A stretch of 64,000 nucleotides of DNA from Deltaproteobacteria bacterium (GCA_031279515.1 JAITII010000037.1:1-64000), one strand, 5' to 3'. Numbered from the stretch's first letter, positions 14,361-26,236 are shown. Program-made: numbers and translations. Notes: a model not told the origin generated them from the sequence alone.

Positions 14361-15325
14361 GTGGTCTTTTGAGGTCTCAAGTTTAAGTTGCTGTAAAATC
14401 TAGTAAAAATAAAATAAGAAAAGAAAAAAATAACAATATTGTTCATTTTTAGTAATTTTTCCTATTTTTTGAGTGAACAATTCTGAGAAAAATATTGCAA
14501 AACTGCAATAAATAACTTTTTTTTCTTTTTCTCATTGCTGGAGACCACAGACAAGAGGGATAAATCATTTTTTGAGCTGGGCTATAAAAATTTTCTCAAA
14601 ATTAATTGTGGAAAAATTTAAACAAAAATAGGAAAAATTAATTTTTTTCGAGTTTATTTCATTTTAAGAAAAAAAATAGATGGGAAAAAATTATAAAATT
14701 GCAATTTTCTAGATTTTTTTTCAATTATTCTGCCTTGAAAATAGGGGGAAATTTAAAAAAAACAAAAGTTCGTTAGTTCAGTTTAGGGGTCCCGAAAGCC
14801 TGCAAATTGGCCATAAAAGCCTTATGTAGCCTAGCTTTTCCCAATTGGGGGGAACCGGAAGAGAAGCTTAGCAGGGCCAAAAATTGGGTCAAACCACAAA
14901 AAAAACTTATAATTGATTTTCTCAAAACAAAGTACTATATTAAAATATGTCTTTACCCTATTGCGCCTCGTAGTCTTTTTAGCCCTTGATTTCCAAGTGC
15001 TCTAAAATTGCCCCGCCTCGTGGGACCAAAAACCTATTTCACTTTAATCCGCTTTATCCCCAAGCTATCTCATCAAACCTTAAGGCCTCTGTCTTAAATC
15101 ACCAAGAGAGGCAAAAAAGCCGCTCTCGAAAACCTAGCTGGCTACAATAACTAAATTTTTTTCTAGCTCATCTTACAAAATCACTAAAATCTTTAAAACA
15201 CCTATTTTTTTCTAGTTTTTGTTGTTTTCTCCCCTAGCACTCCATACTAGGGTTTTAACTACCAAACTAAAAAACCTCCAAAAAAGATGTAGATATATGG
15301 GTCAAGCCCAAAGGGATTATTGACC

Positions 15326-16648
15326 ATGCTCTTAAAAATGACAATTGAAAATTTTCTATCCTTCAGGGATAAGACCATCTTTTCCATGAACGCCAATAGT
15401 GGGCGCAAGTTTACCCAAAGGGTCCAATACCATTCCCACTACAAGAAAAGGGTCCTTCCCATCGTAGGTATCTTCGGAGGTGAACCTACAGGCCATGAAA
15501 GTTTTTGCAAAGCCCTACGCTTTTTCAGGCAATTGGTGAAAGAGACCCCCAACTATGTCAACTCCTTAAATCTCTACACCTTCCAAAACTATTCCGAATC
15601 TGGCAACCTCCCGGTCAAAATGGGAGTGGAGATCCTCTCCAATGATTCGGTGTACCGCTACAGCTTCATGGCTTTAAAGGACATAATCGTAAACGAAAGA
15701 CTGGTGAAGATCACCAAGAGCTCCAAGAGTATACTCTTTGAAAGGAGGAAGAAAAAGATAAAGTTCCACAGGAACAATGAGACCTCCGATGCCCTAAAAG
15801 ATCTGTTTAAAAACATGCCCAAGACCCAGCTCTTTCTGCCCCACTCGGTAAGGCACAAGTTCAAGATCTACGAGGATGTCTACCAGTGGTTCGACGAGAC
15901 CCTCCACGTGGTGGGTCCTGGTACCTACGTGCACCCGCCCATTAGCTCCGATGAGACCGTAAGGGAGTGCCTCTTAATTGACGACTTTATAGAGCGCATG
16001 GACCGCTTGAATATAGGTAGCCATTTGGACGGCGTCCTGGTACCCAAAGGAGAGCATATCCACACCCTGCTAAAGGAAGGCAAGCTAAATGAGCTGGGGG
16101 ACTTTTTGATCCACGTGGACAAAAAGAACCACCAGGTGGGCGTGTATTACAGATACAAAACCTTTAACGAGCAAAAGCTCGTACAGATTTTTCCTTTCGA
16201 AAGGAACGGTATCGGCGAGTACATCCAGTTGCCCAGGCCCTTTTCCACAGAGAAAGAAAAGCACGGTTTTGTGACCCAACTGTGCCTGGCCGATATCCAG
16301 GCCAGCGCGACCCCCAAGCTCTATGTCCTTAACTTTTTAGAGCACTCCTTTGACCTCATCCAGGCTAGGGAGATAATAGCGGAATACCTGGAGCGCTGCT
16401 CCCAGCAAACCCGCTCCCAGATAATCACCACCACAGGCAATGCCCTCCTTTTGGACAAAAAGGTATTGCGCCCGGACGAGATCTGGATCTCCGAGCCTGG
16501 AAACTACGGAAACACCAAACTCCTGTCCTTAGGGGATTTCCGCAAGACCATCAAGGAAAAGCCCGCCTGGAAAGGGGTCAAGAGCAAGTGCATAGGTGGC
16601 ATCTACACTACCCTACTCATGGCTGCCCTGGAAGTAAACCAGGGCTAG
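15326..16648 (+). CDS. AAA_15 / ABC-ATPase-like protein with degenerate Walker A and B motifs
   Basis: MTIENFLSFRDKTIFSMNA...RVLPIVGIFGGEPTGHESFCKALRFF parallels AAA_15 (xENFxSFxD...GxNxxGKSN); C-terminus LLLDKKVLRPDEIWISEPGNYGNTKLLSLGDF parallels AAA_15. Confidence 0.75.
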   Translation: MLLKMTIENFLSFRDKTIFSMNANSGRKFTQRVQYHSHYKKRVLPIVGIFGGEPTGHESFCKALRFFRQLVKETPNYVNSLNLYTFQNYSESGNLPVKMGVEILSNDSVYRYSFMALKDIIVNERLVKITKSSKSILFERRKKKIKFHRNNETSDALKDLFKNMPKTQLFLPHSVRHKFKIYEDVYQWFDETLHVVGPGTYVHPPISSDETVRECLLIDDFIERMDRLNIGSHLDGVLVPKGEHIHTLLKEGKLNELGDFLIHVDKKNHQVGVYYRYKTFNEQKLVQIFPFERNGIGEYIQLPRPFSTEKEKHGFVTQLCLADIQASATPKLYVLNFLEHSFDLIQAREIIAEYLERCSQQTRSQIITTTGNALLLDKKVLRPDEIWISEPGNYGNTKLLSLGDFRKTIKEKPAWKGVKSKCIGGIYTTLLMAALEVNQG

Positions 16649-17514: not shown

Positions 17515-18190
17515 TCATAGGCAAAAAATCAAATTTTGACTAGAAACCCTGGGCTCTTTAGAAGAAAAGAGCCAAACGTTTTTTTGAAATTTGAAGGGTT
17601 GTTTAACCCTAGCTAGCTCCAAAATCTTGGCCTTGGCAAAAAGAGTCTGATGATCGTTGTGGTGAAGACGGCCCACCAGTTGAGGGTCACTAAGCCATCC
17701 ATGTTGAAAAAAGCTGGAAAGGGTGGCGAAAGTATCACCAGATACCCTAGGCCCTTTTTGGTCCTTGGGAAAAGAATGAGCCCTTAAGACGCTATAGGCT
17801 CTAAGAGTTCCGCATAGATATCCAGGGTGTGATTCCGCCAAACCTATCCAGGTTGCCGATTGCACTAATCTGGGGAGCATCATCTAAGCCAAATTTGAAA
17901 TAGTCGGCAAAGCTTCTTTTGCAAAAAAGCTCTGCTGATCTTAAGTTGAGAGCCATGAGGACAACTAAACAGGGCAATCCATTATAGGAAGCAGCATTGG
18001 TAATATTTATCTTGGATATACCAGAGTTTAGAAGGGTTTCATTTATTGAATTTAAATAAACCTCTCCCTTAAGTGACTAAGGGTAGATGGACAACTACCT
18101 TATTGGAACTATTAAAATGGTCAACTACACTACTTTAGTAGTATTCGCCAGCTGGGTCTTTAAGAGAATATTAAAGCTATCAAAGGTCAT
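17515..18190 (-). pseudogene. Putative degraded ankyrin-repeat-like gene
   Basis: Minus-strand reading from ATG 18190: MTFDSFNILLKTQLANTTKVV*..., three TAG stops, then same-frame GEVYLNSINETLLNSGISKINITNAASYNGLPCLVVLMALNLRSAELFCKRSFADYFKFGL...GGITPWISMRNS*. A different frame (ORF 17515..17883) continues after it. Confidence 0.45.
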
Positions 18191-18360
18191 TGAGGTTCCC
18201 CTTTAGTAATTTGTGTAGCTTTTTACAAGAAATTAAAAGCTGGCTAAGGATTTGATAAAAACTTTGGCAGTCTCAAAGGTTAAATGTAGGTTTTGGTCAC
18301 AAAATTATTTATCTAGAATGAAAGTTGGCGGATTACATTTAAAATATTAGATGATTTTTG

Positions 18361-21300
18361 TTATTGTTCTGAGATTGCCTTGGCAACAAAAGGATCAATG
18401 ACGTAAGCTTTTGGTTGGGCAAATGGATCTATAGGTGTAATTAGTTGAAGATCTGATAAAGTTTTAACCGCTGATGCAACGTAAATATTTCTACCCTCAC
18501 TAATATTTAGATTGATTTTCCATCTGGAAAGCTGAATTCTGTATTGGTGGGTGTTTAAGTCATTCTTATCAGGAAACGGGAGAGGAAAATCCTTACCATA
18601 GCGGTGATAAAACAGTTGCTGGAGTTTTAGGGAGGTAACAGGTCCGTGTAGGGCTACAAGTTTTAAGACTGGAAGGCATATTTTTGTATCAAATTGGAAG
18701 TCCGTGGGGATAATGGAAGTAGTATCATTGGTTTCATCAGTAGTAGAAGCATGAATATCTGAAGAGGCTAAGTCTATATCATGTTGCTCGGCGTAAAGTT
18801 TCATTAGTTTATTTACTACCGATAAATACCATCCACCAGTGCTTTCCATGATTTCTTTGGCATCGACACCCTTTAGCTCATAGTCATCGATTAACAATTT
18901 AAGGGAACTCTCATTGAATTTTTTGACTTGGATTTGCATGATTTGCAGTGATGCTTGGATGATTTTTGGGATTATGCTAAACTCTGGTGTAATCAAAATT
19001 GATAAAATATTTTTGAAGTGGCCAGCTTGATTATTGTGTCCATTTACGTAACCGCATAGATTAAACAGTAAAGGGCATAAATGCTCATATTCTAGTTCTA
19101 ATGGATGAACAATTATATGAAAAATTTGTTCGTTTGAGGAAGTTCTGGATAATTCAAAAATTTGAAAAGCTGAGTCAATAGAAGTGAGCTGCATGGTTAT
19201 AATTTTATTATTAAAAGTGGATTGGACAAGATTAAACAAAGCATCTTTAAGAAGTGTTAACTCTTCCTCCTGGGCACAGGAGATAATACGAACACCGTTA
19301 CCATAGGTATTGTGTATAAGGCCGTATTCTTGTAACATAGTAAGAGGGCTGGGGATGGGAATATTATTATTTTTAGACGGTAAGACATACAGTCGTCGCT
19401 TGTTATTTTTTCCATCAGGTGGAATGATGGGGAGCTTTTTTAAGTCATCTACTGCCTGAAATAATTCATCATTGTTATTCCATAAGATATTAGCTGCAGC
19501 GGGCGAATTCTTAAAATAAAACCCCGAATCATTTACTAGCCCGAAGGATTCCATATCCTTTAGGTAATATTCTAGCTCATAGTCCATAAAGTCAGAAAAG
19601 TTATCAGGACATTCTGCGATAATAGAATGATAGAGATAAGTTAATCCATCTTGTCTAAGTTGCAAATGGGGTGTAGCAAAGGGATTTGCCAAAGCAGTTT
19701 CAAGGCTCATTAAAGTGTAAATGAGCCTATAGAAACTATCTTGACCTAAGATAACTTGGTAAGAATTTTTAAAAGCTCCTGTGATTTTGGATTTAGCCAT
19801 TACCCTAGTTAATATTTCTTCTGTTATTATGAATGGTGGAATGCTGTCGGGGGCCAAATTTTTATTCATTTCTTTTATGAGCTCCCGGCAAATCAGTTGT
19901 ACCAGATGCGGTTGGTTGCTTGAGTTGGATAATAACTTGTAGATTAGCTTTTCGTCTTTGAATTCAAAACCTAAGGATTTCAAGGGATCAATTACAAGGA
20001 GCATAGCTTCGAGGGGCTGAAAGGGTCCCATTATGATGGGAGGTCCCAAGTCAAATAGGTGACTTTCTGGATGTCGGTTTAGTCTCCCGGCCAAAGTATA
20101 TCCTGTAAAGATAATCTCAAAAAATGGGCTCAAGGTCATTGTTTTTAGCAAAAATTCTTTATTTTCTGGATTAGCCATTAATTCGCGAAAAATTTCATCA
20201 CTATTGTCAGCTAATATGGTTATACGTTTTATTATTTTGTCATTATTACTAAGTCTTTGGAGCTGTTCAAGCTTATCCAAAATTTTTTGGGCAGAATCAT
20301 CACTGTCAGCTAATTTCAGGGTAACCATACCGGCGCGGACGAGGCCAACTATATCTCTGTAATCTTGGGCATTTAGTAGGGTGACATACTCTCCATTGGG
20401 CAGATTGCTACTCATTGACTGGAATAGGTATTTTAGGATCGCAGTCTTTCCTTGAAAGGGTCCTCCAAGCAACAGTTTGTGGCCCTTTTGTGTGGATAGC
20501 TTCTTTAACACCTCCATGCGTCCATAAAATAGCGGACGGTTATTGAGGGCACTAAAGATGTATGGATTGAAATTTCCAAGGTGGAAGCCGCTCTTAAAGA
20601 GTACCTGGTGTATTTTTTTCTTGAAAAGCTTGGAGCTTAAAAAGGCAACAAGGTTGGTGTCCACCACCAGGATGTTTTTTTGAGAATTTCTAGCCCATTG
20701 CCATAGAAATTTTCTGTCGGAAGTGGAAAGTTTGGTGAAAGACAAAATGACTGTTGGCTTGTCTTCTATTAAGTATCTGTCTAGAATATTTGTTAGGTCC
20801 TTAGAAGAGAATTTTTCGTCCCAGCACATGATGAGAGTAAGGCGTTCATATGTATCTTTCCAGATGTTTAGGCATGGAGAGGTAGAAGCGTTTATGTCGT
20901 ATATGTGGTAGTGCGGTGAATTTATGTTTTTGTAAATCGGGATGAATTTTGCACTTCGCTCTACAGTAAAACCTAGCCAGGAAAGAAATCTTCTAAGTAA
21001 GCTTGCTCCTTTTTCGTCTGTTTCCTCCAGGCTTTTCATTTGGCTAAGTTGTTCCCAGAGTTTCTTACCATCCTTGTCGATGGAAGAATTTTGCTCTAAA
21101 AGCTTTTGGCCATAATACTGGAAAGGGTCACCGCTTTTATCAAATTCATTTAAAAAGGCGTAAAATTCGGAAGCGTAGTTTAATTCAAAAATGCTTGCCT
21201 CCGTATTCAGTATTCTTGACTTTTGTCTTAAAAAGTCTTTTAATTCTTCAAAACAAGCTCGAATGTCCGAAAAATTATCCTCCACGGTGATCCTGGCGAC

Positions 21301-24300
21301 TTTATCACGCATTTCAGGTGAGATTAATTTTATGGAATCATTGTAAAGTTTAACAATATTGACTAAAATATTGATCTTGAAAGAATAAACTTCCGAATCA
21401 ATATGAGGAATTATACTTGTAGCCATGATGCTTAGATTGGAGAGAATAGAATAATCTTTGTTAGATCGACAAGCTTCAAGTATAGAGAGATGAATTTTGT
21501 TGAAGCTACAGAAAACCGAGTTTGTGTATTCGCTTAAAAAACCAGAATAATAATATAAATCTAGAAGATCTTTGTTAGCATTCAGTGTCGACTCCATCTC
21601 ATCAAGTAAGAGGTCAACAGAACTATCTAAAAACTCTTGGAGGGTATTACTGTGGCCTTTGGGTATATAGTTCCTAGCCGGTCTGTAGGCTTCCAGAAAA
21701 AAAGAAGGAAAGATTATTCTGTTGTCTCTTTTCAAATGAGCTAAAAAGCCCTCAGCAGCATCTTGTAAAGTGTAAGTAGGAATTAAAAAGGAGTTAAGAA
21801 GACTTGGCAAAGGAGGGATGTAAACTCCCAAAATGTTGCTGTGGCTATAGTCTTTTATTACCACTGAATAAGAATGCACATCTACTAGGTAGTTAGTGGC
21901 ATAAAAATCATTTTGCCACCTGTATTCCGACAGATTATCATTGGTGGGAGCCATTTGGTTTTTTCCCACTGTTACAAAATCTAGGAAATCCTGGGATGCT
22001 ATGGAAGATAATACTTTGCGGAACAGCTTCTCTGCGAAGTTCATATGCTCGGGAAAATTTTGCAAAAGCAAGTTGGACTTTTCGATTATATCTTTCAACC
22101 TGTTTGTCCAGAACTCTTTTGTGCTACAAAGGTAGTCCCCTTTGAGAGCTCTGTGATAATCCACCCATTGGGAAGCCAAGGCTAACATTGAGTTGATGTT
22201 TTCTTGTACGATAACTCCGTTGTTATTCCTAAAGGCTTGTTGGGTAAACTTGTCTACATTTTCTTCTATGAATTTTTTGAATGACTCGTCGTCTATGTAT
22301 TTTATCGAGGAAGTTTCCACATCACTAAGGTCTCCTTTGATGGCTGCCTCCAAAATGTCATGTAGTTTCCCTTTTTGCAAGACGGTTTTCCACAAGTGTG
22401 TTGCCAGCGTGTAGTCACAGTAGTGCTTGTCCAGGTATAACTTAAAGTCATCGGTTTTCTCAATTAATTGTGCATGTGCTGTCTTTAAGTTTTGTGCATT
22501 ACAAAATATCCTAAAATCCCTAGAGTAATCTTCACTTGTGTCTATATCACAGAGTTGAACTAGACTATCTAACAAATCAGTTGAATAGCGTTTAGGTAGA
22601 AATTTAGAAAAAAATGTGTAGAAACCTTTATAGAGAGGATTTGGAGCCATGATATTTGGATACAGAAGAGCTGTATACATTAAGATGGCCTCTTCCGGTT
22701 CCAGAGTTGTTTTCCTTAGTCCCTTGTAGCGGTCTATTTCCTCGTTGATGTCTATAAAGGCCTGCTGTAGTGTAAAAGGTGCCGCTTTAAAGTTTAAACC
22801 CAAATGCAGAAGTTTCATTAACCAACTAGCGAAGTAATTATCAACCGTTGCAACTGCAAGAAGATATGCGCTTCTAGTTTGGGATTTGTCCAGGAGTTTT
22901 ATAGTAACACCTCTGACGAGATCGCCCACAACATTATAAGGTAAGTCTTGTCCAGGAAGAGTTCCTTTTAGGGGAATTAAAAATTCTTCAAACTGTTGCA
23001 AATTTCTGTCTGCAAACTCTTGGTCACCTTTTAGCAATCTCAGGTTACTTGTAGATGCGACGAGATTATCATCACTCATATCTGAACGCAACAGAGATAA
23101 AAATTCTTCATTATTATAGTTATTGTCTGTTAAATCTTCATTGGCTAATCTAGTTAGCGTATCTCCCATTTGGTTGACATACATTTTTTGTTTGGGGAAG
23201 TCTGAAGGCCTAGAAAGAAGCTCAATTATATCTGAGCTGGTGATAGCAGCATTTGGAGAGCTGCCGCTTCCATCAAATAATGGTAGAACGTCCTTAGATT
23301 CTACCGGTGTAATAGTGTCATCTCCGTCTACTATGTCTATTTCACTTGTTCTGGTGGCAACTATATCGCTTTCATGATTCAAATCCATTAGTTCTTCACT
23401 TAGAGGTGGTAATTCATCTGTCAATGAGTCTAAAATTGATTCATATGCACCTTCATTGAGTTTAGTTATAAAAGTACTGGAGAATTTATCTTTTAAGTTT
23501 ATTAGTTGCGATTCCTTTAAAGGTTTGGTCATTAACAGGAGCTTTATGAGTTCTTTGCCTAATGGACACTCGGGTTCCCAATTTTTGTCTAATGGAAGTC
23601 TGTTAATTTTATTTATCATTTGGGTCAAAGTATTGTAATCTGTCTTGCCAGGACGCACCAATTTTCGTATCTGAAGAAATATATATGCGGCTGAATTAGA
23701 AACCTGAAATGTTTCCTTTAATCTTTCTAATGGTTCGAATACTTGTTGGAACTGTTCATTCACCATTTCCCAATACGATACTATGTTGTCGGATTTTTTT
23801 GATATATCCTCAGGGGAGACTTTAAATAAGAAATCTAAATTTACGTTGGGCGTACTTTCAAATTTATCAATATTTTGCCAAAATTTGGCAAGTAAATCTT
23901 CGATCAAAGCCATCATTTCTTTTCCGTAAGAGTAGGCTTGTGCGACGATTTTCTTATTGTATTTCCAATGCTTTCCAGACATGATAGAGCATAACTTATT
24001 ATTAATTACTTCAATTTCTTCGTTTAGCTTATTAAAATCTGCTCTTATTATGTGTTCTATCGTTTGTTTGATTTTTAAAATGTCAATATATTTATCCCTA
24101 GCATTTTGAGTTTCTGGAGGTACATATGGTACATTTGATTTGATTTTTGGCAAAAACTTCAATGATTGTAGCAGTTGCAATAGAACAAAGTCAGTTTCTA
24201 GAATTTGCTCATTTTTTTCATCCAGCATATCAAGGAAGATAAACAAAAGCTGTTGCCAATTGGAGAATCTTAGTTTCCTGGCTTTTTCAAAGGGAGGTTT

Positions 24301-24576
24301 AAATATTGCGGTATGCCATAAAAAGATGAGTTCTTGTAACAACTTTTCATTCATGGCGATTTTTTGCATTTCTTCTAAGCGGCTTTTGCTGGTCAAGGCT
24401 ATTTTAGGGTATTTTTTAGCAAAAAAGCTATAATCAAATTTGCAAGCCCTAAAGAAGCGTTCACATTCTTCCGGATACAAGCTAAGATCGCTCAAAAGGG
24501 TCTGGATGCAGTCTTTTTTCATCATTGCTCTAACTAACTCAGTGGGTAAGAGCTGCTTTTTTTCTGTTTTTTTCAT
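18361..24576 (-). CDS. Giant (2071 aa) STAND-like/AAA P-loop NTPase, putative conflict/defence or signalling protein
   Basis: NNRPLFYGRMEVLKKLSTQKGHKLLLGGPFQGKTAILKYL (Walker A GGPFQGKT); ITILADNSDEIF (Walker B-like); FEIIFTGYTLAGRL; LGPPIIMGPFQPLEAMLLVIDPLKSLGFEF; QPHLVQLICRELI; second module with ESTGGWYLSVVNKLM. Confidence 0.75.
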   Translation of the reverse strand: MKKTEKKQLLPTELVRAMMKKDCIQTLLSDLSLYPEECERFFRACKFDYSFFAKKYPKIALTSKSRLEEMQKIAMNEKLLQELIFLWHTAIFKPPFEKARKLRFSNWQQLLFIFLDMLDEKNEQILETDFVLLQLLQSLKFLPKIKSNVPYVPPETQNARDKYIDILKIKQTIEHIIRADFNKLNEEIEVINNKLCSIMSGKHWKYNKKIVAQAYSYGKEMMALIEDLLAKFWQNIDKFESTPNVNLDFLFKVSPEDISKKSDNIVSYWEMVNEQFQQVFEPLERLKETFQVSNSAAYIFLQIRKLVRPGKTDYNTLTQMINKINRLPLDKNWEPECPLGKELIKLLLMTKPLKESQLINLKDKFSSTFITKLNEGAYESILDSLTDELPPLSEELMDLNHESDIVATRTSEIDIVDGDDTITPVESKDVLPLFDGSGSSPNAAITSSDIIELLSRPSDFPKQKMYVNQMGDTLTRLANEDLTDNNYNNEEFLSLLRSDMSDDNLVASTSNLRLLKGDQEFADRNLQQFEEFLIPLKGTLPGQDLPYNVVGDLVRGVTIKLLDKSQTRSAYLLAVATVDNYFASWLMKLLHLGLNFKAAPFTLQQAFIDINEEIDRYKGLRKTTLEPEEAILMYTALLYPNIMAPNPLYKGFYTFFSKFLPKRYSTDLLDSLVQLCDIDTSEDYSRDFRIFCNAQNLKTAHAQLIEKTDDFKLYLDKHYCDYTLATHLWKTVLQKGKLHDILEAAIKGDLSDVETSSIKYIDDESFKKFIEENVDKFTQQAFRNNNGVIVQENINSMLALASQWVDYHRALKGDYLCSTKEFWTNRLKDIIEKSNLLLQNFPEHMNFAEKLFRKVLSSIASQDFLDFVTVGKNQMAPTNDNLSEYRWQNDFYATNYLVDVHSYSVVIKDYSHSNILGVYIPPLPSLLNSFLIPTYTLQDAAEGFLAHLKRDNRIIFPSFFLEAYRPARNYIPKGHSNTLQEFLDSSVDLLLDEMESTLNANKDLLDLYYYSGFLSEYTNSVFCSFNKIHLSILEACRSNKDYSILSNLSIMATSIIPHIDSEVYSFKINILVNIVKLYNDSIKLISPEMRDKVARITVEDNFSDIRACFEELKDFLRQKSRILNTEASIFELNYASEFYAFLNEFDKSGDPFQYYGQKLLEQNSSIDKDGKKLWEQLSQMKSLEETDEKGASLLRRFLSWLGFTVERSAKFIPIYKNINSPHYHIYDINASTSPCLNIWKDTYERLTLIMCWDEKFSSKDLTNILDRYLIEDKPTVILSFTKLSTSDRKFLWQWARNSQKNILVVDTNLVAFLSSKLFKKKIHQVLFKSGFHLGNFNPYIFSALNNRPLFYGRMEVLKKLSTQKGHKLLLGGPFQGKTAILKYLFQSMSSNLPNGEYVTLLNAQDYRDIVGLVRAGMVTLKLADSDDSAQKILDKLEQLQRLSNNDKIIKRITILADNSDEIFRELMANPENKEFLLKTMTLSPFFEIIFTGYTLAGRLNRHPESHLFDLGPPIIMGPFQPLEAMLLVIDPLKSLGFEFKDEKLIYKLLSNSSNQPHLVQLICRELIKEMNKNLAPDSIPPFIITEEILTRVMAKSKITGAFKNSYQVILGQDSFYRLIYTLMSLETALANPFATPHLQLRQDGLTYLYHSIIAECPDNFSDFMDYELEYYLKDMESFGLVNDSGFYFKNSPAAANILWNNNDELFQAVDDLKKLPIIPPDGKNNKRRLYVLPSKNNNIPIPSPLTMLQEYGLIHNTYGNGVRIISCAQEEELTLLKDALFNLVQSTFNNKIITMQLTSIDSAFQIFELSRTSSNEQIFHIIVHPLELEYEHLCPLLFNLCGYVNGHNNQAGHFKNILSILITPEFSIIPKIIQASLQIMQIQVKKFNESSLKLLIDDYELKGVDAKEIMESTGGWYLSVVNKLMKLYAEQHDIDLASSDIHASTTDETNDTTSIIPTDFQFDTKICLPVLKLVALHGPVTSLKLQQLFYHRYGKDFPLPFPDKNDLNTHQYRIQLSRWKINLNISEGRNIYVASAVKTLSDLQLITPIDPFAQPKAYVIDPFVAKAISEQ

Positions 24577-26236
24577 GTTACATCTCTTTTTGCGGACCTA
24601 TATACAGCGAAATAATCAAAGAACAAAGCTATCCCATGGGGCAAAAAGCTATTTGTGGGAACTTTGTTGGTATTAAAGAAGATGGGTAAGTTAGCTCAGA
24701 ACAGAAAGGTCTCCCTAAAAAACCATAGGTTTTAGTATTTCTTAAGGACTTTCCATTTTATGGAACTCTAACGCCTTGTGATAATTATATCCATACTTGT
24801 ATTCATTTTGTCAATTAAATTAGAAGGTGCGCTTTAATCTTGTCTTTAATTTTATCCCTCTTTTCTAGAGTGAAATGTCCTTTGCTATTTACTCCCTTAT
24901 AACACAATATTCTTTATAATTCGATGTTGTATTAAAAATAATATTATTACACCATATGTAGCAGGGATTTTTATATCTTTACGCTAAAAGGCCCTTATGA
25001 GTTTTAGGTTCGCCATGCTAATGGGTTCTGCCAGAGTTTTTTTAAGGGCCTTATAATCCCTATTTGTGCCTAGCCAGAATCTACGGAAAGCTACCTAAAT
25101 CTTAGACCTGTGGTTAAATAGCCCCTTTTAGTACTATGGAAGGCTATACCTTAAGCCCCAGGGAGAGCCTTTTATCGTATTGGGATAAAAAGAAAATATC
25201 CACCATATATTGTGGAACAATCGTCTAAAACAGGCTCATCTTGACGAATTTTAAAGCTAGATTACGACGTAAAAAGTCTCAAAAATTTCAGATGAAAAAA
25301 GAGTCAATATTTAGTAGCAATATAATGCAACATCGACACTATATAGTACTAATTCATATCTCTGATTATACGGGTCCCTTTTACGCTGCGATAAATTAAA
25401 AGAAGAGATAGTTTGTTTAAAGATAAACTCCTGTTTAATGATATCCTTATCCGCTTTAGCCCTTTGGCTTATTTTTATCTGCATAAAAATATAGCTTAAT
25501 AGATGCACTATATTTAACTTTACGCCTTTCAGATGGCTTTTCAAATAGCGTGCTTAGGTCAGGTGATTAATCGCTCCCAAGATGACTATCCCCTTAAAAG
25601 CTGCTGTCAATTGGCGGGAGCTTTCTTTGAAGCCATCCTTTCTAACAAATGGCCCCTTAACTTTCTCTGGTTATTAGATTGAGACAATAATGCGCCAGCT
25701 TGGTAGTGACCTTAAGGTGGGTAAGATCCCACAAAGCTACTAAAGGGGGGCAGATTTAAACCCGATGTTAGGCTATAGCTCTAGGTTACCCTATTATAGG
25801 GAGTAATATTTTAACAGGCCTTAGGGCTTAAATCATTTTACCTTAGGCTACTATACTCTTTTAATTTGCAAGACAGATTAAGCCATATCTGGCCCGGTAA
25901 TTATCCTCAAGCTAAGGCCCAAAACTATTGTAAAAACCCACCCCCTCTTGGTGAACTAGAAACCTTTTTCAGGGCGCTGCCAGCTAAAAAGGGCAAAATC
26001 CAACCCTTTATAAGCTGTTTTAAAGCCCACCCTGATGGCAGGAGCAGCACCGCTAACCCAAAAAGAGGGGGGGACCTAGGGTTAGATCTTATAATAAGCT
26101 CCCCTTAGCCCTTGATTTCTTCCTCTAAATTACCTATATTTATTGTTTTTGGGGCCTCCAATAAGCCCGATAATTAGCAAAAGCTCCCCATTATTAACCA
26201 CTTTCTAGGAGCACAGGCTCACCAGACAGATCCTAT

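Follow-up and report, generated by a model that had tools for sequence, protein, structure and literature searches.

In the 64,000-nucleotide stretch of a Deltaproteobacteria bacterium genome analyzed here (GCA_031279515.1 JAITII010000037.1:1-64000; the window), a gene on the minus strand (18361-24576) encodes a very large nucleoside triphosphatase (NTPase). The protein is probably the large subunit of a two-gene conflict system, widespread but undescribed, that combines a STAND-type NTPase with a HEPN-domain protein; the system is probably antiviral. The observations behind this reading are the operon found in relatives, the HEPN similarity and motif of its second gene, a pseudogene of that gene in the window, paralogues in the same genome, the spread across phyla, and the defence genes that adjoin distant homologues.

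The frame starts with ATG and runs through 2071 codons without interruption, as the first-pass annotation of this DNA had described, and every motif quoted there was located in it: ILVVDTNLVAFLSS (residues 1300-1313), FYGR (1350-1353), LLLGGPFQGKT (ending at 1378), as well as IIFTGYTLAGRL, MGPFQPLEAMLLVIDPLKSLGFEF and QPHLVQLICREL. Homologues are present in 12 of 61 related genomes, many of them full-length and about 1600-3100 amino acids long, which puts the frame far beyond chance. The same genome carries two paralogues: a full-length copy with 80% identity on contig 33 and one with 41% on contig 137. We delineated the following regions:

18361-24576, minus strand: complete gene of the large STAND/AAA+-type NTPase, 2071 amino acids, recognized from its open frame, its homologues and a ratio of nonsynonymous to synonymous substitution rates (dN/dS) of 0.63 against the contig-33 paralogue
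23377-24576, minus strand: N1 region, residues 1-400, predicted all-helical with low confidence, present in same-family relatives only
22987-23376, minus strand: poorly conserved linker, residues 401-530, with a ratio of nonsynonymous to synonymous differences per site (pN/pS) above 1 against contig 33
21037-22986, minus strand: conserved helical region, residues 531-1180, common to several distant relatives
20527-21036, minus strand: alpha/beta (Rossmann-like) domain, residues 1181-1350, with VVDTNL and, at its end, NPY...FYGR; conserved across phyla
19657-20526, minus strand: STAND/Cdc6-type AAA+ NTPase domain, residues 1351-1640, indicated by the ORC/Cdc6 profile, the structural model and Foldseek
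20443-20466, minus strand: Walker A motif GGPFQGKT, residues 1371-1378; canonical GGRQLGKS/T in distant relatives
20197-20208, minus strand: Walker B motif D1457-N-S-D1460; DE.D in relatives, the second acidic residue being N in the window copy
19297-19656, minus strand: helical segment, residues 1641-1760, winged-helix-like by position, with an invariant RR at 1727-1728
18697-19296, minus strand: C-terminal alpha/beta domain, residues 1761-1960, with TGGW at 1913-1916; perhaps a second, degenerate P-loop NTPase

Judged by its Walker A and Walker B motifs and its ORC/Cdc6 similarity, the window protein is a STAND/Cdc6-type AAA+ NTPase with the ATPase toward the C-terminus, both as proposed earlier. 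The GK of Walker A is kept in 18-19 of 20 members, following the P-loop pattern GK[ST], and among the 20-21 members aligned D1457 and D1460 are invariant, as expected of Walker B, with G-K nearly so. Searched against the PDB, a profile of residues 1100-1760 matched AAA+ proteins of the Cdc6/ORC type (E = 7.5e-7). The AlphaFold model of residues 1001-2071 has a mean predicted local distance difference test (pLDDT) of 70, rising to 85-93 in many blocks of the NTPase domain, and shows alternating strands and helices in residues 1181-1350. With this model Foldseek retrieved the tandem AAA+ proteins p97, ClpC and Sec18 (best E = 7e-8) and Cdc6 (E = 8.3e-6), at TM-scores so low that the relative domain arrangement in the model is unreliable. 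The tandem matches suggest that residues 1761-1960 may be a degenerate second P-loop domain; hhalign gave no support for them as a duplicated NTPase, and the idea stays conjectural. This C-terminal alpha/beta domain (residues ~1740-1960, with TGGW) had been overlooked in the first pass, as had the two paralogues and the partner remnant described below; a tail after residue 1960 closes the protein. C-terminal repeat sensors (TPR, LRR, WD40) are typical of many STAND proteins; here Pfam gave no repeat match and the model places the alpha/beta domain in this position. For the window protein as a whole, Pfam and PADLOC returned no family at E<=10, and NCBIfam nothing significant.

In the relatives, clustering of neighbouring genes yielded one dominant family, encoded on the same strand downstream of the NTPase and usually adjacent to it, with products of about 360-600 amino acids. 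Within the same bacterial family, 12 of 37 genomes carry the NTPase, other families of the class giving one weak partial match only; over 37 genomes, 12 have both genes, none the NTPase only, one the partner only (a fragment) and 24 neither (Fisher p = 7e-9, phylogeny ignored). Among the 18 same-family loci whose NTPase is followed by 1 kb or more of sequence, the partner was found in 15, two lack it (L035 and L047), and the window holds a remnant. These partners are about 430-670 codons long, with uncertain start sites; that of L048 was detected by tblastn and has in-frame stops in the matched stretch. In distant lineages the partner is present at 15 of 23 loci, often overlapping the NTPase stop codon or a few bases away from it.

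By profile and motif, the C-terminus of the partner is a Swt1-like HEPN domain with the ribonuclease (RNase) motif Rx4H, a form of Rx4-6H. HEPN_Swt1 is matched by 11 of 18 partner C-termini (best E = 9.6e-5), and single partners also match HEPN_RiboL-PSP, HepT, Abi_2 or DUF4145. In an alignment not selected for the motif (A7), every member has H430, and R425 is conserved at 90% or more; a second alignment (A9) was trimmed to the surroundings of the HEPN motif, which in part explains why R and H do not vary in it. Distant partners show RN..AH at this site. The partner product likely cuts RNA. The contig-137 partner keeps RHLSAH; that of contig 33 (L032:13016-14383) has an intact frame in which the HEPN arginine is replaced by S (LSHLSAHH), and it is possibly catalytically dead. 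In Bradyrhizobium and Azospirillum (L095:14464-16113 and L096:14184-15857) the partner has an added C-terminal, polynucleotide-kinase-like AAA_33 domain; a single chain predicted both to cut RNA and to phosphorylate ends would be an unusual combination. An inactive STAND domain in the N-terminus of the partner seemed plausible by eye, found no support from hhalign and stays equally conjectural.

In the window itself, the partner gene has decayed. It lies in a segment (17628-25254) that is an 88% duplicate of contig 33:

17628-18190, minus strand: HEPN partner pseudogene, 5' half only, frameshifted (tblastn E = 1e-36; blastn 85% over 1080 bp)

Against the contig-33 gene, the remnant has 11 one- or two-base insertions or deletions (indels) in 738 aligned bases, including a short leader, and two nonsense codons; it scores only 30 bits, compared with about 600 for intact copies. 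Its 3' half is deleted, and the HEPN domain is therefore gone. An assembly error behind the broken gene is unlikely, given 11 small indels and a 3' deletion next to a clean 6.2-kb frame. With its second gene decayed, the window copy is unable to work with an effector in cis.

The locus might be a decaying relic in which the effector is lost and the NTPase is functionless, its frame open merely for shortage of time; we give this serious weight, though at less than even chances. A partner reduced to a pseudogene is what such a relic would show, and other copies of the family are partial or have broken P-loops. Yet the 6.2 kb of NTPase frame beside the decayed partner are free of frameshifts; had indels built up there as densely as in the partner, about 90 that break the frame would be expected. 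The pairwise dN/dS of 0.63 against contig 33 and an excess of amino-acid changes in residues 1761-1960 (71 versus 9 synonymous changes; pN 0.149, pS 0.074, p = 1.8e-4, nine regions tested) point toward decay; the values of 0.26-0.45 in the NTPase core point away from it, though they could in part reflect constraint acting on the contig-33 branch alone. With contig 137 as reference, the window (contig 8) and contig-33 copies have changed equally (68:70), giving no sign of faster decay in the window NTPase, and three conserved sites were lost in the window copy versus six in the contig-33 copy. Within the two-gene system, the window copy would be either an orphan sensor using the partner of a paralogue in trans or a locus early in decay, and the retained frame modestly favours the orphan sensor.

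The first-pass annotation had called the protein stand-alone and suggested that it could act by itself, with a possible effector or sensor in its N-terminal ~1250 residues. The term stand-alone is wrong because relatives form a two-gene operon of NTPase and HEPN gene, of which the window copy has lost the second. An N-terminal effector did not emerge either: the first 1250 residues have no Pfam match, and the AlphaFold model of the N-terminal half (mean pLDDT 52) is all-helical at low confidence. The effector is likely the separate HEPN gene rather than this region. A self-contained immune NTPase could draw on the frame kept after partner loss and on partner-less distant relatives bearing other N-terminal modules, such as the sigma-70 regions in Brasilonema; with the partner being the rule within the protein's own clade and no detectable effector domain in the N-terminus, we consider it very unlikely. 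What stands of the earlier proposal is an undescribed defence or conflict candidate, with no Pfam or PADLOC family and with distant relatives in defence contexts.

Close relatives with named records are Deltaproteobacteria metagenome-assembled genomes (MAGs); judging by bin names and PMC9137090, the bacteria are putatively termite-gut Adiutricaceae. Across the phylum the NTPase is distributed patchily, with 7 positives among 396 sampled genomes, and two genomes of one genus (G028 and G032, genus g8) have 10-11 NTPase-matching places each, a lineage-specific expansion; several copies in this genus have altered P-loops. Searching contigs with the whole protein gave no relatives, and searching with the conserved GGRQLGKS group found them. 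The core common to the distant proteins covers residues ~1180-1760, several sharing ~530-1960, and occurs in Streptomyces, Euzebya, Bradyrhizobium, Azospirillum, Microvirga, Methylocystis, Agrobacterium, Bosea, Thiodictyon, Cupriavidus, Burkholderia, Salinibacter and Brasilonema and in Bacillota and Myxococcota MAGs. The N-terminus in front of it is exchanged among relatives. In two proteins of 3100-3400 amino acids (L095:5158-14460 and L119:3982-14166) a pPIWI-RE/RNaseH region precedes the STAND NTPase core, and the fused gene stands in an operon with the HEPN partner. In B. elkanii the N-terminus consists of pPIWI-RE X, MID and RNaseH domains, and the operon also includes a PprDinG helicase (1e-161). 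These fusions are apparently an undescribed extension of pPIWI-RE systems. A Brasilonema plasmid protein (L100:7597-14466) carries sigma-70 regions 1.2-4 before the core; it has no HEPN partner and is followed by a helicase gene. Nine other relatives gave no Pfam match of note in the N-terminus.

Plasmid homologues adjoin Druantia III (DruH and DruE3, E = 0), Hhe (1e-197) and a CBASS-like set of E1-E2/JAB and patatin genes; these defence neighbours are examples, with no statistical test. Together with the pPIWI-RE fusions they favour conflict with invaders over a regulatory, toxin-antitoxin-like module in which the NTPase would restrain a HEPN toxin in stress or plasmid maintenance rather than act against phages. 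We regard such a module as unlikely, even though HEPN domains are classic toxin modules (PMC3710099), many relatives were found on plasmids in the plasmid collection searched, and one is fused to a sigma-70 factor; a pure antitoxin kept after toxin loss would need another reason.

Several observations weigh against the two-gene conflict system. The window and the paralogous loci lie mostly among metabolic genes, read by eye as cobalamin or iron uptake and phosphoglycerate mutase, with no clear defence island. Eight of the 23 distant loci have no partner, including two in Streptomyces and those of Brasilonema and Euzebya. The individual HEPN profile matches are weak, a sequence search of the PDB with the partner gave no HEPN structure, and a search confined to phage records gave no NTPase relative. 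In the window copy, moreover, the Walker B glutamate is replaced by N.

If the two-gene STAND-HEPN system is what these loci encode, we infer a switch-like mechanism. The variable N-terminus and helical middle of the NTPase would recognize an invader cue or target, and ATP bound by the STAND/Cdc6-type domain would change the assembly state. The switched NTPase could then release or activate the partner, which would cut RNA with the Swt1-like HEPN domain (Rx4H) at its C-terminus and so arrest or kill the cell. More speculatively, and on balance rather doubtful, the loci might represent a new immune class: a STAND NTPase with a Swt1-like HEPN RNase and an exchangeable N-terminal targeting module (helical, PIWI-type or sigma-factor), expanded in putative termite-gut bacteria to multi-copy families in which orphan sensors share effectors in trans. 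If true, such sensors would be a bacterial analogue of sensor-helper immune-receptor networks. A sensor kept after the loss of its own effector, together with paralogous operons, makes shared bacterial immune effectors directly testable.

STAND immune proteins are already known, and Avs and bacterial NACHT (NLR-like STAND) proteins likewise place a STAND-type NTPase in a very large protein with an inferred effector switch after sensing. In Avs proteins the effector is N-terminal and repeat sensors are C-terminal; here the NTPase is C-terminal, no repeats were detected and the likely effector is a separate gene, and the Pfam and PADLOC searches (E<=10) gave no sign of Avs membership. The DUF499-HEPN ATPase systems (BREX-related type 1, 'Hma'; PMC12839542, PMC3710099) also combine a STAND/ORC-Cdc6 AAA+ ATPase with a Swt1/Abi2-group HEPN RNase. 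They differ in that our protein has no DUF499 match and its HEPN is a separate downstream gene; no methyltransferase-helicase pair was recognized in the inspected neighbourhoods, whose genes were domain-scanned in part. For pPIWI-RE systems (restriction endonuclease, DinG helicase and pPIWI-RE), the 2013 account reports the pPIWI-RE gene alone or in the triad, and a search of its text turned up no STAND NTPase or MoxR ATPase in association with that gene (PMC3702460). In Bradyrhizobium and, by annotation, Microvirga the NTPase is fused behind RNaseH/pPIWI-RE with the HEPN partner adjoining, and in Azospirillum an RNaseH-domain gene adjoins the NTPase gene, whereas Pfam finds no pPIWI-RE X, MID or RNaseH domains in the window protein. 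The HEPN-STAND fusions of the HEPN superfamily survey (PMC3710099) likewise join HEPN and STAND NTPase as functional partners, but in a single chain, some with TPR or S1; here two separate genes form a conserved pair, and the large NTPase is a family of its own.

While HEPN-STAND and HEPN-DUF499 combinations are thus already known (PMC3710099, PMC12839542), this large-NTPase family with a separate Swt1-like HEPN partner is absent from the libraries searched, and we found no paper describing it in a literature collection with few subscription journals. Its members are currently annotated as "AAA family ATPase", "ATP-binding protein" or "hypothetical protein". If true, the two-gene reading would mean that this family, annotated generically across several phyla, gains a name, a partner and a mechanism open to testing, and it would link PIWI-type modules, STAND switches and HEPN RNases.

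Upstream of the NTPase gene, 1.66 kb (24577-26236) contain no clear gene, and about 680 bp of this are duplicated on contig 33:

24577-25254, minus strand: non-coding upstream region within the duplicated segment, about 88-90% DNA identity to contig 33

Rfam gave no conserved RNA or leader there at E<=1. Conservation of an upstream leader was considered and dismissed, as the three upstream regions align well only between the window and contig 33, which are duplicates. The genes flanking the contig-33 copy, considered as paired insertion sequences, are by eye metal-uptake binding-protein-like genes. About 1 kb beyond the partner pseudogene, an AbiLi-like ATPase gene (15320-16648, plus strand; PADLOC AbiLi, E = 7e-34) has a degenerate-looking P-loop (GGEPTGHES) and is possibly another defence relic.

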